Below are positions 37,283 through 42,856 of a stretch of 64,000 nucleotides of DNA, one piece after another. The notes under the pieces are model-generated. The model was not told the DNA's origin. It made no database searches and worked only from the letters and a program-made list of their open reading frames with translations. This DNA comes from Schaalia sp. HMT-172 (GTDB taxonomy: Bacteria > Actinomycetota > Actinomycetes > Actinomycetales > Actinomycetaceae). The position numbers and the translations under genes are program-made. Position 1 is the first letter of the stretch. Every line of letters starts with the position of its first letter. Location of the stretch: contig NZ_CP130058.1 in NCBI RefSeq assembly GCF_030644365.1, positions 744,001 to 808,000 of the forward strand, in the 5' to 3' direction.

Positions 37283-37578
37283 ACACGCGCGTCACCTGCC
37301 AGGACGTCCTGGACGCCCTGTACGAACTGATCGACTGCGAGGAGTGTGACCGCCGCAGCGGCCTCATCGACGCCGGGTCCGTGCCCGGGCCGAACGCCCG
37401 CGCCCGAGCCCTCATGATCCAGCACGTCGCCACCTGCCCGCACTGCGCCGACGCCCTCGACGCCGAACGCCACGTCCGTGCCCTCATGCGCGGCTGCTAC
37501 GAGTCCGAGCAAGCCTCGGATGCGCTGCGCGCTCGCGTCGCTGCCTCCATCATGAGTGTGTCGCTCACCTGGCGCTGA
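37279..37578 (+). CDS. rsrA: Mycothiol-system anti-sigma factor (RsrA/RshA type)
   Basis: This 99-residue protein carries the zinc-binding anti-sigma signature H49-x3-C53-x2-C56 (HVATCPHC), with a further upstream cysteine (C7, C20 or C23) as the probable fourth ligand. RsrA-type proteins hold the sigma factor until thiol oxidation forms an intramolecular disulfide. GGAGG lies before the GTG, which overlaps the sigma stop (GTGA), ensuring coupled synthesis. Confidence 0.93.
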
Positions 37579-37741
37579 TCGCGGCCTCGCGCGTGTTCGC
37601 TCCCTGCGCTCGTCGCCGAGGCCGGGGGACGCCTCCCGTTTTTCGGTGACCTTCGTCGCCGCGGTGGCGTTGTGCCTTGGTGGTTTGGGTCAATGTGTGC
37701 AAAAATGCTTCAGTCTAGACAACAAACCCAAGGAGAATGAC

Positions 37742-37816
37742 ATGTCGAAGCGGGGTCGTAAGCGTCGCGATCGTCGTAAGAACGGCGCGAACCACGGCAA
37801 GCGTCCTAACGCCTGA
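37742..37816 (+). CDS. 50S ribosomal protein bL37 (24 residues)
   Basis: MSKRGRKRRDRR is followed by KNGANHGKRPNA, a 24-residue, very basic peptide. It matches the actinobacterial ribosomal protein bL37, first seen in mycobacterial ribosome structures, which lies near 23S rRNA domain II. A strong AAGGAG lies 6 bases before the ATG, and a perfect hairpin with a T-run follows. It sits directly downstream of the sigma/anti-sigma pair. It is too short for most gene callers. Confidence 0.9.
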   Translation: MSKRGRKRRDRRKNGANHGKRPNA

Positions 37817-37829
37817 GCCGATTTCGTTG

Positions 37830-37861
37830 CGCGCCCGGACCGAGCGGTCCGGGCGCGTTTT
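37830..37861 (+). terminator. bL37 terminator
   Basis: Arms CGCGCCCGGACC and GGTCCGGGCGCG (12 bp, perfect) enclose GAGC and are followed by TTTTG. It starts 13 bases after the bL37 stop. Confidence 0.92.
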
Positions 37862-38099
37862 GTATCCGCTGGTGGCAGCAACCAGCCGCAGCGGTGCGGG
37901 GTGCACGCCTGGTGTGTGGGATTCTGCCGGGGTGTCGGGTGAATACTTGCGGGGCAGTGGAGACGTCGAGGGGAATCCCGGGCATCGGACGGTGAGCGTT
38001 TCCACGAGGGGCGCTACATCTGGCTGATGTGTGCCCACCCGCGGGCCCAAGTCGTGAAGTGCGTGACGGGCCGAGGTGGGGTTTCATTGCGCTGCATCT
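37862..38099. other. Intergenic stretch before the repeat arrays, no gene seen
   Basis: These 238 bases have no ORF with a plausible start and ribosome site on either strand. The last 60 bases merge into degenerate repeat sequence (GCATCTGCATAGG). It may be decayed sequence between the core and accessory regions. Confidence 0.5.
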
Positions 38100-38272
38100 G
38101 CATAGGAACGGCGCATCCGGATAGGAACGGCGCATCCGGATAGGTTATTAACCTATCCGCGTGTTCGTATCCTATCCGGATGTTGCTTACCTATCCGCGT
38201 GTTCGTAACCTATCCGGATGTTGCTTACCTATCCGCGTGTTCGTAACCTATCCGGATGTTGGTTACCTATCC
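38100..38272. repeat. Repeat cluster 1: 19-bp units, 3 forward then 7 inverted
   Basis: Forward GGATAGG-type units start at 38100 (degenerate GCATAGG), 38119 and 38138. Inverted CCTATCC units start at 38152, 38171, 38190, 38209, 38228, 38247 and 38266. Spacing is exactly 19 bp within each arm and 14 bp across the palindromic centre (AGGTTATTAACCT). The inverted arm alternates two unit types: CCTATCCGCGTGTTCGTAA and CCTATCCGGATGTTGCTTA. Confidence 0.9.
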
Positions 38273-38600
38273 GCGTGATAGCGTCCGATGGGTGTGATCC
38301 GTGAGAAGACGTGAGGTCAGTTGATTTTCCGCATGCGAGACGGCGTGAGCCTGGCGGTTGGTGGACTCGTGGCCTCGCATCTGGATAGGAACGGCGCATC
38401 CGGATAGGTTATTAACCTATCCGCGTGTTCGTAACCTATCCGGATGTTGCTTACCTATCCGCGTGTTCGTAACCTATCCGGATGTTGGTTACCTATCCGC
38501 GTGATAGCGTCCGATGGGTGTGATCCGTGAGAAGACGTGAGGTCAGTTGATTTTCCGCATGCGAGACGGCGTGAGCCTGGCGGTTGGTAGACTCGTGGCT
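38190..38600. repeat. Tandem duplication of a 226-bp block (array arm plus spacer)
   Basis: Bases 38190-38374 and 38416-38600 are nearly identical at an offset of 226 bp, differing by only a few bases near the end (ttGGTGGactc versus ttGGTAGactc; GTGGCC versus GTGGCT). The block includes the inverted arm and a 105-110 bp spacer starting GTGATAGCGTCC. A third, more divergent spacer copy lies at about 41475-41583. Confidence 0.85.
38383..38498. repeat. Repeat cluster 2: 2 forward then 5 inverted units
   Basis: Forward units start at 38383 and 38402; inverted units at 38416, 38435, 38454, 38473 and 38492, all at 19-bp spacing. The inverted arm is identical to the last five units of cluster 1. 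Confidence 0.9.
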
Positions 38601-40030
38601 GGGCGTGTTTAATTGTCTGTGTATCCGTCTTTTGTTTGAAAGGATTGATGCATGATGAATGATGATGATGTTGTTGTGGCTCGCGCTAGTGGGCGTGAGA
38701 CGGTGGAGGAGCTTCGTCGCTCGGGGGCGTTGGATGCGTTGTTTGAGCGTCTTGATGCTGGCGAGGTCGAGATGACGGGTAGCGAGGGCTTGTTGCCGGC
38801 GTTGCTTAAGGAGGCGTTGGAGCGCGGGTTGGCCGCGGAGCTGACCGAGCACTTGGGGTATGAGAAGGGCCAGGCCAGTGGGCAGGCTCGCTCGAACACG
38901 AGGAACGGCACGACGAAGAAGACCGTGATGTCGGAGGTGGGTGCCTTCGAGATCGAGGTTCCCCGGGACCGGGCGGGCTCGTTCACCCCGCGCCTGGTGC
39001 GTAAAGGACAGCGGCGCCTTGATGGTTTGGATTCGATGATTATCAGCTTGTATGCCGGGGGGATGACGGTACGCGATATCCGCCATCACCTGGCCTCCAC
39101 CCTGGGCGTGGAGGTCAGCGCTGGGACGATTTCTACGATCACTGACGCGGTGTGCGAGGCCGTCTTGGAGTGGCAGCACCGCCCCTTAGAAGCGTTCTAC
39201 CCGGTGATCTACCTGGATGCGATCCGCATCAAAGTCCGATGCGATCACAGGGTGGAGAACCGGGCCGCTCACCTGGCGGTCGGAGTGGACATGGAGGGGG
39301 TCAAGCACGTGCTGGGCATCTGGGTCCAAGCCGATGAAGGCGCCTCCTTTTGGGCCCACGTGTGCGCCGAGCTGGCCAACCGAGGCCTACGCGATGTCCT
39401 GATCGTGTGCTGCGACGGACTTACTGGCCTGCCTGAAGCCATCGAAGCGACCTGGCCCCAGTCCATGGTCCAAACCTGCGTCGTTCACTTAATCCGCGCC
39501 TCCATGCGTTTCGTGTCCTACAAGGACCGCAAGAGCGTCGCCGCGGCTCTCAAGGCCGTGTACAGCGCGCCCAACGAGGAAACCGCCCGAGGGGCGCTGG
39601 AGGACTTCGCGGCCAGCGACCTGGGAGCGCGCTACCCCCAAACGGTTGCCACCTGGCAGCGCGCCTGGCAGCGCTTCACGCCGTTCTTGGCGTTCCCGCC
39701 CATGCTGCGCCGCGTCGTGTACACCACCAACGCTATCGAGTCCTTGAACTACCAGCTACGCAAAATCACCAAGAACCGCGGGCATTTCCCCAGCGAAGAA
39801 GCCGCCGTCAAACTCTTGTGGCTCGCCATCTGCAACATCGAAGACAAAAGAGCCGCCCAGCGCCTCACAGACGCTGGCAAACCCCCCAACAAACGAACAG
39901 GACACACCCGCCTCATCGAAGGACACACCACCACCAACTGGAAACAAGCCCTCGCCCAACTCACCACCGCCTACCCCGACCGAATCACCCCCTACCTCTA
40001 ACCCCCATACACAGAAAAATTGACAGGCTC
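38601..40030 (+). mobile_element. IS256-family insertion sequence with 8-bp target duplication
   Basis: The element is 1430 bp. The left terminal repeat (38601-38624) and the right one (40007-40030, inverted) match at 18 of 24 positions, ending in TCTGTGTAT on the inner side. It is flanked by TCGTGGCT at 38593-38600 and 40031-40038, an 8-bp direct repeat. Removing the element and one copy restores ...gactcgtggcttcgcatctgg..., the same junction found uninterrupted at 38370-38384 and 41566-41584. One transposase gene fills the element. Confidence 0.92.
38652..40001 (+). CDS. IS256-family (mutator) transposase
   Basis: This 449-residue protein has the DDE triad at about D189 (YLDAIRIKV), D255 (CCDGLTGLPEAI) and E363 (TTNAIESLNYQLR). 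The CVVHLIR motif lies between the second and third residues, as expected in the mutator/IS256 group. An N-terminal DNA-binding region is followed by the catalytic core. The frame is intact, so the element is probably active or recently active. AGGA lies upstream of the tandem ATGs at 38652 and 38655. The IS interrupts a repeat spacer, not a gene. Confidence 0.95.
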   Translation: MMNDDDVVVARASGRETVEELRRSGALDALFERLDAGEVEMTGSEGLLPALLKEALERGLAAELTEHLGYEKGQASGQARSNTRNGTTKKTVMSEVGAFEIEVPRDRAGSFTPRLVRKGQRRLDGLDSMIISLYAGGMTVRDIRHHLASTLGVEVSAGTISTITDAVCEAVLEWQHRPLEAFYPVIYLDAIRIKVRCDHRVENRAAHLAVGVDMEGVKHVLGIWVQADEGASFWAHVCAELANRGLRDVLIVCCDGLTGLPEAIEATWPQSMVQTCVVHLIRASMRFVSYKDRKSVAAALKAVYSAPNEETARGALEDFAASDLGARYPQTVATWQRAWQRFTPFLAFPPMLRRVVYTTNAIESLNYQLRKITKNRGHFPSEEAAVKLLWLAICNIEDKRAAQRLTDAGKPPNKRTGHTRLIEGHTTTNWKQALAQLTTAYPDRITPYL

Positions 40031-40046
40031 TCGTGGCTTCGCATCT

Positions 40047-40238
40047 GGATAGGAACAGCGCATCCGGATAGGAACGGCGCATCTGGATAGGAACGGCGCA
40101 TCTGGATAGGAACAGCGCATCCGGATAGGAACGGCGCATCTGGATAGGAACGGCGCATCTGGATAGGAACGGCGCATCCGGATAGGTTATTAACCTATCC
40201 GCGTGTTCGTAACCTATCCGGATGTTGGTTACCTACCC
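40047..40238. repeat. Repeat cluster 3: 8 forward then 3 inverted units
   Basis: Forward GGATAGG units start at 40047, 40066, 40085, 40104, 40123, 40142, 40161 and 40180. After the palindromic centre, inverted units start at 40194, 40213 and 40232 (degenerate CCTACCC). All steps are 19 bp. The typical forward unit is GGATAGGAACGGCGCATCT or a close variant. The last inverted unit lies within the 3' end of the DUF559-like gene. Confidence 0.9.
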
Positions 40239-41311
40239 GCGTGGTGGTGTCCTATGCGTCGGGTCCATGAGTAGAAGCGCCGCAGAGGGCCATCGCAACG
40301 TTGTGTAGGTAGCTTCCACAGGAGACGGCATTCTGGCGTGGGGTTGATCGGTCCCAGGGTTCGGCTCAACCTGATACGCAGCTGTTCCCAATCATCGTAG
40401 TCCGGCCAGCTGACTCGAAGAACCCTCCATCCCGCATCTCGCAGGTTCTCATCGCGCAATACCCAGTCGCGCTTGGCTTGTTCGAGCTCGGCGCGAGTTT
40501 CTCCGAGTTTTGCAACTCCATCGAATTCAATGATGAGGTGCAGGTCTTCAATGAGGATATCGATGTAGTAGTGGTGGCCGCGTACCCCAATATGCACCTG
40601 CGTTTTGGCTGCGAAGGGGCAGATGGATCGTACCAGCCAGAGAAGCGCAGCTTCAGCAGGGTTGGTGCAGCCTGGATCGATGGCTTTGAGGATCGCGCGA
40701 GCACGTCGGTAGCCGCGAACGTGGCCAGCTCGGTCGAGGCGAGCAAGCAGCTCGGCGCGGATCTGTTCAGCTCGCTGGCGGCCCTCATCCTGATGGAACA
40801 TTGAGAATTGACTCCATGCGTTGAGTGCCATGCACCCAAGGACGAAGGACTCTAACGGCTCCTCATGAAGCGCGCATTGGACGAGAGCATCGTAGGGATG
40901 TTCCGTGATCAGGCCGTCGATCCTGCTCCGTTCTTGCGACAGAGGAGGAAATTGAGAGCATGAAACAGACGTAGGCGGAACCGTCGTGGAGCCGACGCTA
41001 CACGAAGGCAGAGAAGAGGTACACCTCCGGTGTTCGCGGTAGATGGTGACAGGAGGGTTTTGGGACCACCCGTGGATCCCCAGGAGTCTCAAGCAGCTTT
41101 GCCCGACAAAGATCGGGGAGTGCTCGTGGGAATTGTTGACGGCATGCATGCGCGCGCGGGTAACGGCATCCCATACCTCCCAGGGGTCGGCATTGGTTGA
41201 ATCGAGGGGTAAAACTGCGCAGACGCCACGCATGATGTGAACCGTTGTTGATGTCGACTGATTGCGAGGTAGGTCTGCTGGAGGGGCGATGATGATGGAA
41301 GTCTGTGTCAT
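40229..41311 (-). CDS. DUF559-domain (PD-(D/E)xK nuclease-like) protein
   Basis: This is a 360-residue protein. The C-terminal third looks like a DUF559/VSR-type nuclease fold: PAEAALLWLVR, then HHYYIDILIEDLHLIIEFDG, which supplies the D...ExD arrangement, a following helix with ELEQAKRDWVLRDENLRDAGWRVLRV, and W. The N-terminal two thirds are not recognised. Similar actinobacterial proteins occur as solitary genes of unknown role. The base composition is clearly less GC-rich than its neighbours, suggesting transfer. Its last 15 codons run into repeat cluster 3, and the C-terminus resembles a reading of the nearby spacer repeats. AGGAAA lies about 9 bases before the ATG. Confidence 0.72.
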   Translation of the reverse strand: MTQTSIIIAPPADLPRNQSTSTTVHIMRGVCAVLPLDSTNADPWEVWDAVTRARMHAVNNSHEHSPIFVGQSCLRLLGIHGWSQNPPVTIYREHRRCTSSLPSCSVGSTTVPPTSVSCSQFPPLSQERSRIDGLITEHPYDALVQCALHEEPLESFVLGCMALNAWSQFSMFHQDEGRQRAEQIRAELLARLDRAGHVRGYRRARAILKAIDPGCTNPAEAALLWLVRSICPFAAKTQVHIGVRGHHYYIDILIEDLHLIIEFDGVAKLGETRAELEQAKRDWVLRDENLRDAGWRVLRVSWPDYDDWEQLRIRLSRTLGPINPTPECRLLWKLPTQRCDGPLRRFYSWTRRIGHHHAGR

Positions 41312-41437
41312 AGACGAAGTTTCCTACCATCAGCAGCGGCTAGGAAAGTGCTAGGCGAAGGCCTGTGGACACGTCCGACACGGGATATTGCCCTGTGGAT
41401 AACTGTGCTTGAGGATGTGGATCGGAACTGCCCTTGT
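41312..41437. other. Intergenic stretch upstream of the DUF559-like gene
   Basis: This region should hold the promoter for the DUF559-like gene on the minus strand. No ORF is supported. It grades into degenerate repeat sequence (GGATGTGGATCGGAACTG) near its right end. Confidence 0.45.
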
Positions 41438-41797
41438 GGATAGGGGCCGCGCAACCGGATGTTGGTTACCTATCCGCGTTATAGCCCCGGTGGGTGGGAT
41501 CCGTGAGAAGACGTGAGGCCAGTTGATTTTCTGCATGCGAGACGGCGTGAGCCTGGCGGTTGGTGGACTCGTGGCCTCGCATCTGGATAGGAACGGCGCA
41601 TCCGGATAGGAACGGCGCATCTGGATAGGTTATTAACCTATCCGCGTGTTCGTAACCTATCCGGATGTTCGTTACCTATCCGGATGTTGGGACGGGGTGT
41701 GGCCCGTGGTGTTGCATCTGGATAGGTTCGGCGTATCTGGATAGGAACCGCGTATCCGGATAGGTTATTAAGCTATCCGGATGCTGGTTACCTATCC
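41438..41797. repeat. Repeat clusters 4 to 6 (remnant, 3+3, 3+2 units)
   Basis: Cluster 4 is a remnant with GGATAGG at 41438 and CCTATCC at 41469, followed by a spacer resembling the 226-bp block. Cluster 5 has forward units at 41585, 41604 and 41623 and inverted units at 41637, 41656 and 41675. Cluster 6 has forward units at 41720, 41739 and 41758 and inverted units at 41772 (GCTATCC) and 41791. Spacing is 19 bp throughout. The 174 bases from 41798 to the hydrolase start show no supported gene. Confidence 0.88.
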
Positions 41798-41971
41798 GCG
41801 TGATGGCCGAATCTGCTGGGTCTGGGAACAGTATGGACGCCAGTGGATTCTCTGCTCGGGAGGCGACGCGGCTGCCGGCGGGAAAGGTGAATGCGTCCTA
41901 TCCTGGTGTGTGCTGGCGCGCCGGTGCGTCCCGCGCGCAGACACTGGTTCGTCGAGACGAAAGAGGCCGTC

Positions 41972-42856
41972 ATGTCCCTTCAGATGCGCCTTGTGCACGT
42001 TGGCTTGGGGCTGCTCCCTCCGCTGCTGCATAGCGAGGAAGTGACGGAGCAGATGGCACGTCATGCGCCGCAGCCGAGCCCCATGCCCGCGCGCATGCGC
42101 TCCCGATTCACAGCGACCATCGACGCAGGAGTGACCCGCGTGTTCCCGAAGCGGGGCCAGCGCGCGGGCGGCGCGCTCATCTATCTGCACGGCGGAGCCT
42201 ACGTGTACCCGATGGTCGCCGGGCAGTGGGGCGTCGTCGAGGGCCTCATCGACCGAACCGGCCTGCCCGTCATCATCCCTGACTACCCGATTGCTCCCGC
42301 GCACACTGCGACCGACGCGTTCGACGTCGTCCAGCCCATCATCGACGAGGCCCAGGCTGAGTTCGGCCGCATCATCCTCTTCGGCGACTCGGCGGGAGGC
42401 GGACTGGCCCTCTCCCTCGCGATGCAGCGACGCGACGCGGGTGTGCGGCAGGTGGACGGCCTCGTCCTGTACGCCCCGTGGGTGGACGTGACCATGACGA
42501 ATCCGCGCATCGAGGAGGTGCAGCGCCGCGACCGGGTTCTGCGCGTGCCCGGGGTGGCGTGGGCGGGCCGCGCGTGGGCCGCAGACCTGGATCCGACGGA
42601 TCCGCGCGTCAGCCCCCTGTACGGAGATCCGGCGGGCCTGCCGCCGATACGCGTCTTCCAGGGCGACGCGGACATACTCGGCCCCGACGCGATCGAGTTC
42701 GCCCACAAGGCCGATCGCGCCGGGGTGGACGTGCGTCTACGCGTGGAGCCGGGCGGTTTTCACGTGTATGTCCTCGGTGTTCCCACCATTCCCGAGGCCG
42801 AGGCCGCCCTCGACCGCAGCGCTCGCTTCATCTCGTGGATCCTCACCCAGGGCTGA
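41972..42856 (+). CDS. Alpha/beta hydrolase (hormone-sensitive-lipase type esterase)
   Basis: The protein has 294 residues. The oxyanion motif HGGAY is near residue 70, the nucleophile elbow is GDSAGGG, the catalytic Asp lies in FQGDADILGPD and the catalytic His in GGFHVY near the end. These mark the HSL-like alpha/beta hydrolase group acting on short-chain esters. AGAGG precedes the ATG at 41972; the frame is open a further 27 codons upstream without a ribosome site. It is the first gene right of the repeat clusters. Confidence 0.88.
   Translation: MSLQMRLVHVGLGLLPPLLHSEEVTEQMARHAPQPSPMPARMRSRFTATIDAGVTRVFPKRGQRAGGALIYLHGGAYVYPMVAGQWGVVEGLIDRTGLPVIIPDYPIAPAHTATDAFDVVQPIIDEAQAEFGRIILFGDSAGGGLALSLAMQRRDAGVRQVDGLVLYAPWVDVTMTNPRIEEVQRRDRVLRVPGVAWAGRAWAADLDPTDPRVSPLYGDPAGLPPIRVFQGDADILGPDAIEFAHKADRAGVDVRLRVEPGGFHVYVLGVPTIPEAEAALDRSARFISWILTQG

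Follow-up and report, generated by a model that had tools for sequence, protein, structure and literature searches.

What are the short, regularly spaced repeats that lie between the genes in one 64-kb stretch of the Schaalia sp. HMT-172 chromosome, and what might they do for the cell? The stretch analyzed here, which we call the window, comprises positions 744001-808000 of contig C1 in the 2,533,704-bp, single-contig genome G000. An initial annotation of the window had described six clusters of GGATAGG units that meet CCTATCC units at a palindromic centre, and had offered three possible roles for them. We find that such facing arrays occur in dozens of copies at fixed, nonrandom spacing, both elsewhere in this chromosome and in ten genomes overall. 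The grounds for rejection named in the initial annotation, units confined to the window or randomly spaced in other copies, are therefore not borne out. Because the heptamer core is near-invariant, its phase is fixed, the chromosomal places are shared among relatives and an RNA signal is absent, we conclude that these elements are probably protein-binding arrays.

Facing heptamer arrays in the window

The window carries 39 exact GGATAGG or CCTATCC heptamers, compared with 4.05 ± 2.15 in shuffled sequences (none of 100 shuffles had as many), and 38 of the 39 are confined to positions 38119-41797. Same-strand heptamers less than 40 bp apart are always separated by 19 or 38 bp (13 + 8 pairs in the forward direction and 13 + 9 in the reverse), which agrees with the strict 19-bp steps previously described. 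Five arrays, to which no strand is assigned, converge on centres. Counting units with two mismatches allowed, array 1 (38100-38272; centre 38138-38158) has 3 units facing 7, array 2 (38383-38498; centre 38402-38422) has 2 facing 5, array 3 (40047-40257; centre 40180-40200) has 8 facing 4, of which 2 are exact and 2 degenerate, array 4 (41585-41681; centre 41623-41643) has 3 facing 3, and array 5 (41720-41797; centre 41758-41778) has 3 facing 2. The arm lengths first reported are therefore retained except for array 3, which had been entered as 8/3. The sixth cluster (41438-41475, no strand), formerly listed as a 1/1 array, contains a single unit per direction, lacks a palindromic centre and reads as a decayed remnant.

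Some further details of the initial annotation need adjustment. The 14 bp said to separate the inner units is measured from the start of one inner heptamer to the start of the other, and the stretch that intervenes between them is 7 bp. The centre of array 5, GGATAGGTTATTAAGCTATCC, is an imperfect palindrome with GGATAGC on one side, and this one-sided G-to-C change proves to be the commonest state of the family. Two alternating unit types are clear by eye in the inverted arms of arrays 1 and 2, whereas the remaining inverted arms are not long enough to tell. An inter-array spacer (38278-38373, no strand) recurs at 38504-38599 (99%) and partially at 41487-41579 (96%), showing that the island was enlarged by local duplication.

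Conserved geometry across the genome

G000 contains 48 two-armed centres at 29 places. When the gap between two heptamers is allowed to range from 10 to 14 bp, 78 forward and 84 reverse steps are found in this genome, and fixing the gap at 12 bp leaves 77 and 84. In the heptamer clusters listed without regard to orientation (see below), steps other than 19 bp (or 14 bp at the centre) are rare and comprise missing units (33, 38), slips (18, 20), inter-array gaps (45) and outlying units (60, 61, 70). A search for the centre pattern, which assumes facing units beforehand and permits at most 2 mismatches, gives 57 forward matches in G000 against 9 for a reversed control. Of these matches, 48 fall in the window or in the 28 array stretches examined, each with a phased neighbour, and the other 9, equal in number to the control, all carry 2 mismatches. 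An orientation-free list yields 42 clusters of at least three exact heptamers, in which forward units are followed by reverse units, either as single arrays or in chains. Chained arrays occur at L068, L078, L087 and the window, and the sole stray heptamer is located in L065.

Arms range from 1 to 8 units, and 20 of the 48 centres have the 3+3 arrangement. Read toward the centre, the unit approximates cATcC-GGATAGG-tTa with a period of 19 bp (a 7-bp core and a 12-bp spacer), and the centre is GGATAGG-TTAWTAA-SCTATCC. Among 127 middle units accepted with at most 2 mismatches, the heptamer positions are 97-100% conserved, A at position -4 is kept in 95% and T at -3 in 84%, and the TTA that follows the heptamer is only weakly kept in the arms (76/57/71%). 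Adjacent spacers within an arm are 0.69 alike over their 8 variable bases. Most copies have an asymmetric centre: of 147 centres, 100 have C at the end of exactly one inner heptamer, the innermost pair being G versus C and hence mismatched, 45 have G on both sides, one has C on both sides, and one has A and T. The polarity of this asymmetry has no link to the direction of replication (11 CG and 8 GC on the right replichore, 8 CG and 6 GC on the left).

We next compared array places among relatives, defining a shared place by homology of flanking genes (the shared gene closest to the array is 2-3 kb away in a few stretches). Relatives were sampled by one centre pattern, so that the counts are lower bounds. 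Of 84 array stretches in relatives, 72 carry homologues (at least 45% identity) of the genes flanking an array place in G000 (73 of 85 if an arrayless stretch, L115, is counted). Of the 29 G000 places, 19 have the genes of both flanks in common with an array stretch from one or more of six relatives. In 64 matched array pairs, which share one or both flanks and for which the best-matching arrays were chosen, the heptamer differs at 29 of 2428 positions (1.2%), the adjoining four bases at 274 of 1460 (18.8%) and the spacer at 810 of 2920 (27.7%). Random array pairs differ by 1.8%, 34% and 57%, respectively. That spacers drift while the 7-bp core and the 19-bp phase hold in ten genomes points to a clade-specific DNA-binding factor.

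The gap between a transaldolase and an exonuclease gene provides one example of such a place. It is filled with repeat modules in array genomes and short in G007, which is the closest congener that lacks arrays and is readable at this position (the gap in G008 is N-filled). Distant copies within one genome are mostly not near-identical when compared by eye, the window and L068 being the exception.

Distribution among genomes

Among 213 genomes of the family, the 19-bp two-heptamer step is found in 12, of which ten have 46-161 each and two (G010 and G019) have one each; the other 201 have none. The ten array-rich genomes, from a group of oral actinobacteria, form one clade with support of 97/98 in a DNA tree built from 687 bp of a conserved neighbour gene. 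This tree has 23 rows, drawn from the 27 of 35 genomes with a match (8 have none) after omission of G017 (long branch) and of G010, G021 and G030 (partial or weak matches), and it includes neither G010 nor G019. A protein tree of the neighbour gene at L081 gave no resolution. Carriers of the centre include S. odontolytica FDAARGOS_732, Actinomyces sp. HPA0247, A. bouchesdurhonensis and Schaalia sp. ORNL0103, as well as records titled Sanguibacter keddieii 250_SKED and Xylanimonas cellulosilytica 352_XCEL, which we take as the congeners G022 and G023.

Outside this group, a match in a Bacillales metagenome-assembled genome (L115) is without a phased array, viral contigs hold no match to the centre pattern, and plasmid and phage collections hold none to the one array searched (L077). 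Two-heptamer matches in viral sequences were taken as chance, given that among the best 80 of 104 stretches 79 have a single step and the remaining one (L248) has three steps 38 bp apart.

The single arrays of G010 and G019 are situated at the window's own site, upstream of the same hydrolase gene. Hydrolase matches of at least 76% occur in exactly the 12 array genomes, and the next best are at 50-51% (G007 and G008). The hydrolases of G010 and G019, with 82-85% identity, exceed those of some clade members (76-79%). Lower values are found for the broken L081 match of G010 (63-75%) and for the sigma-factor gene upstream (68% at the DNA level). The simplest reading is that the hydrolase locus and its array would have moved horizontally.

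Gene context and chromosome position

Using genes called by our own hexamer-based open reading frame (ORF) caller rather than published annotation, we find that array gaps in G000 comprise 18 convergent, 15 codirectional and 0 divergent intervals, compared with 19, 164 and 33 among the 216 other gaps of the same stretches. The excess of convergent gaps (P ~9e-12) and the absence of divergent ones (P ~9e-5) were evaluated by intergenic length, with the proviso that neighbouring arrays are not independent. None of the 48 centres falls inside a called gene, and the distance from stop codon to array has a median of 301 bp over 47 gene ends.

In four complete genomes anchored at dnaA, the terminus-most third holds 10 of 82 merged sites where 27.3 are expected, and the counts per tenth from origin to terminus are 7, 7, 8, 9, 19, 13, 12, 4, 3 and 0. 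The P values for individual genomes are 0.008 (G000), 0.044 (G006, with 2 of 17 sites in that third), 0.005 (G013) and 0.26 (G018, with 3 of 14). Convergent gaps are not rarer near the terminus, where 160 kb hold 14, compared with 10 in the 140 kb at 0.30-0.44 Mb. Neither of these stretches contains a 19-bp step. Likewise, 12 kb around dnaA in G000 and 11-12 kb in G006, G013 and G018 contain no 19-bp heptamer step with 2 mismatches allowed. Because an unrelated repeat of the same islands, called (b) and described below, is also sparse near the terminus, we attribute the terminus bias to the repeat islands as a whole and not to the arrays alone.

A putative protein-binding array

Among the three roles originally proposed, iteron-like protein-binding arrays are the best supported, a chromosome-organizing site is possible and a paired-arm RNA structure is disfavoured. 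Under the first of these, one protomer or dimer would occupy each 19-bp unit and bind cooperatively along each arm. Two protein-loaded arms, most often of three units, would then meet as mirror images at an AT-rich and usually asymmetric centre. The resulting complex of fixed geometry would be placed in intergenic space, most often past gene ends, where it may have a structural role on the chromosome (as a convergent-gene barrier, or in marking domains or segregation) and not act as a promoter. This structural role is a guess from location. For the combined reading, in which the arrays are binding sites for a putative sequence-specific DNA-binding protein that perhaps structures the chromosome, we consider the prospects evenly balanced.

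The mid-replichore peak of array sites leads us to lower our expectations for two more specific claims. If the arrays do bind protein, a chromosome-structuring use is plausible but falls somewhat short of an even prospect. It is unlikely that, in the S. odontolytica group, a putative clade-specific protein assembles complexes of facing arms on 3+3 sites at ~30 places between genes, for the most part far from the terminus, to establish domain barriers between convergent genes or marks for division or segregation. Nucleoid occlusion of the SlmA type employs a TetR-family DNA binder that acts on FtsZ, and we know of no Noc or SlmA in the S. odontolytica group.

Several observations weigh against a protein-binding array with a structural function. 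First, the binding protein was not found, in that Pfam searches of 37 neighbouring proteins gave mostly ordinary genes, and 8 of the 10 array genomes have a single match to ParB_N, so that there is no general Noc-like paralogue (G013 and G026 have two, the second of G026 being below cut-off). Second, array sites peak at mid-replichore and not at the origin, the unrelated repeat (b) is also terminus-poor (2 of 30 merged sites, from the best 40 of 89 candidates), and the terminus statistics are limited by the fact that array sites are common by descent. Third, the acceptance of units with up to 2 mismatches and the pairing of best arrays push down the heptamer difference rate of 1.2%, and repeated gene conversion could be an alternative cause of the likeness among units. 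Fourth, G005 is without an array at the shared transaldolase/exonuclease place, and G010 and G019 keep one intact array and no other. Finally, the arrays sit among other dispersed repeats, a setting that would also suit a selfish or neutral element.

In the open-access literature that we searched, no description of these facing arrays appeared among the papers listed. Their copies, phase and facing arms make them directly testable in the tractable oral bacterium S. odontolytica, in which they are known from strain FDAARGOS_732. A transposon-sequencing (Tn-seq) library with a reported average of one insertion per two to three nucleotides (PMC12369343) belongs to another strain, XH001.

Alternative explanations

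The main rival to a protein-binding array is a selfish repeat with a putative mobilizer. In this case, a dispersed repeat resembling repetitive extragenic palindromic (REP) sequences or bacterial interspersed mosaic elements (BIMEs), selfish or neutral, would be spread by a mobilizer that recognizes the conserved heptamer, and would be tolerated between gene ends. We regard this as the less probable explanation, albeit one to be taken seriously. Array placement matches that of REPs, which are described as occupying chiefly the gaps that separate convergent or unidirectional genes (PMC3733652). Other repeat families occupy the same islands, local multiplication is common, and an insertion sequence (IS) stands beside arrays at two places, reminiscent of the REPs that serve as IS targets (PMC1525189). 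However, a mobilizer of the expected kind is missing, in that the Y1_Tnp (RAYT) transposase domain has no match in any of 35 genus genomes, while control genomes match in 5 of 14. Moreover, many array places are common across species, copies compared by eye show little trace of recent spread beyond local duplication, and phased, multi-unit facing arms are unlike the 20-40 bp palindromes described for REPs (PMC3733652).

An improbable alternative is that the arrays are operators for a transcription factor, such as a DtxR/IdeR-like regulator. The centre shares TAGGTTA and TAACCTA with the published 19-bp DtxR/IdeR box TTAGGTTAGSCTAACCTAA (PMC1382209), 15 of the 33 array gaps are codirectional, and the single arrays of G010 and G019 are upstream of a hydrolase gene. 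Against this proposal, none of the 33 gaps is divergent and 18 are convergent, an atypical pattern for operators. In addition, the arms conserve the TTA of the unit weakly, and the half-sites of the centre are 1 bp apart and not 3. Because no DtxR box within 4 mismatches was found in 677 kb of G000, we do not draw a link to DtxR/IdeR.

Still less probable is a cargo-less transposon, or miniature inverted-repeat transposable element (MITE), whose arms would be binding sites for a Tn7- or Mu-like transposase. Several direct repeats per end in inverted orientation are also a feature of Tn7 and Mu ends. However, arm length varies from 1 to 8 units, conserved terminal bases are absent beyond ~5 bp outside the outermost heptamer, no flanking duplication was seen by eye in the listed outer flanks, and many places are common to several species.

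A function at the RNA level, as a bidirectional terminator or long hairpin, is very improbable. Predicted folding is strong (median z of -8, from crude mononucleotide shuffles), as is expected of any inverted repeat, and arrays are often at gene ends. Yet the innermost pair is unpaired in 100 of 147 arrays, and the 2674 other heptamer pair cells include 2636 that are unchanged, 38 that are broken and 0 that are compensated, with the few changes making this modest evidence. The median of 301 bp between stop codon and array also speaks against a terminator. Hairpins at array-side gene stops reach -15 kcal/mol at 41 of 45 ends, but so do 89 of 103 coding controls. An Rfam search of window positions 37400-42000 returned five matches, all below the gathering score, four of which align arrays with MIR4380 at 25-31 of 83 bits, and a search of 12 of the 28 array stretches returned tRNAs and a ZTP riboswitch only. 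With one array per place, facing spacers are no more alike than shuffled ones (0.355 versus 0.376 ± 0.019); an apparent anti-similarity of facing spacers (0.389 versus 0.495) was dropped when it vanished under this restriction. Because the central pair is mismatched and facing spacers are no more alike than shuffled ones, the evidence points to what would be recognition of double-stranded DNA with a built-in central asymmetry.

DNA-uptake or recombination marker sites are equally improbable, given that just 29 places exist in the genome and that the geometry is phased and multi-unit, even though inverted gene-end pairs resemble neisserial uptake sequences and the array shares with G010/G019 a hydrolase locus that may have moved horizontally.

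Neighbouring genes and other repeats

Arrays 2 and 3 are separated by an insertion (38601-40030, plus strand) that carries a transposase ORF (38652-40001) with the Pfam domain Transposase_mut, and which we take to be of the IS256 type. It is bordered by the 8-bp direct repeat TCGTGGCT at 38593-38600 and 40031-40038, and is a later insertion, foreign to the arrays, that splits the cluster. A 99.4% copy at L074:5181-6610 adjoins an array and has CGGCGCCG on both sides. No third copy is present in the 677 kb examined in G000, a sample taken mostly around arrays but including 320 kb of other stretches, which lack the IS.

DNA-binding proteins encoded near arrays include a sigma factor, a helix-turn-helix nucleotidyltransferase, two MerR regulators (L070 and L085) and a YefM antitoxin, none of which our analyses tie to the arrays. 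A YoeB/YefM-type toxin-antitoxin pair adjoins an array at L067:4204-4736 (minus strand). Within the array cluster of the window, an ORF at 40229-41311 (minus strand) has a weak, below-cut-off match to REase_MTES_1575.

Other repeats share the intergenic islands. The second intergenic repeat, (b), is ~120 bp long (L061:868-1000), with the ends TCGCATGCAATTCC...GAATTGCATGCGA and the near-palindromic middle CGTTGGAATTGCAACG. It has 46 matches in G000 (the best 40 of 89 candidates were scored), which on the right replichore are mostly plus-strand, and has no match in G007 or G010. Downstream of the transaldolase-like gene (L174-L183), modules of the form GCTAAGTGGTGTTACACCACTTAG...GGAGGTGGTGTAAT and a GC-rich CGCCGCGAGCTTCGCTCGGCGCGT... 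block are present in an order that varies by species. A further dispersed repeat with inverted ends, TTTTGCACCATTAGGAG...CGGCGTGTCGCCGGCGTGTCGCGGCTCTAATGGTGCAATTCCCC, is found at L065:4002-4093, L070:2977-3071, L083:4560-4653 and L085:4563-4637.

Comparison with known systems

Like REPs and BIMEs (PMC3733652), the arrays are dispersed, extragenic, biased to gene ends and grouped, with inverted units, and they occupy convergent or unidirectional gaps (18 convergent, 15 codirectional, 0 divergent). Unlike the 20-40 bp palindromes of that account, they are built of two facing arms along which 7-bp sites recur in 19-bp phase. Their central pair is usually mismatched, and the hairpin shows no sign of being kept by selection. 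The spacers of clustered regularly interspaced short palindromic repeats (CRISPR) are unrelated and unique, whereas those of the arrays are 12 bp long and partly alike. With a 7-bp core and inverted arms, the arrays also differ from CRISPR repeats of 24-48 bp (PMC3733652), and the earlier verdict that they are neither CRISPR nor a simple minisatellite holds on structure. Compared with the ends of MITEs and transposons, they have no terminal motif and a variable arm length, with flanking duplication checked by eye only. Their motif is other than that of DnaA boxes, the TTATCCACA-like 9-mers, which are found near dnaA.

The TAGGTTA...TAACCTA half-sites resemble those of the 19-bp DtxR/IdeR boxes (PMC1382209). 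The arrays depart from these boxes in half-site spacing (1 versus 3 bp), in their mostly gene-end location and in an invariant GGATAGG rather than TTAGGTTA. As with Noc and SlmA sites (PMC5540599), there are dozens of dispersed, terminus-poor sites. The arrays differ from these in having about six sites each and a peak at mid-replichore rather than near the origin, and the terminus depletion that makes them alike is also displayed by another repeat of the array islands. Lastly, the arrays differ from plasmid iterons, which are tandem sites bound by Rep at an origin of replication, in that 19-bp steps are not near dnaA of G000, G006, G013 and G018, and from iterons and partition centromeres alike in the lack of a plasmid match for one array. 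They share with both the use of direct repeats with a period of ~19-22 bp, here deployed in dozens of chromosomal copies, each with two facing arms.

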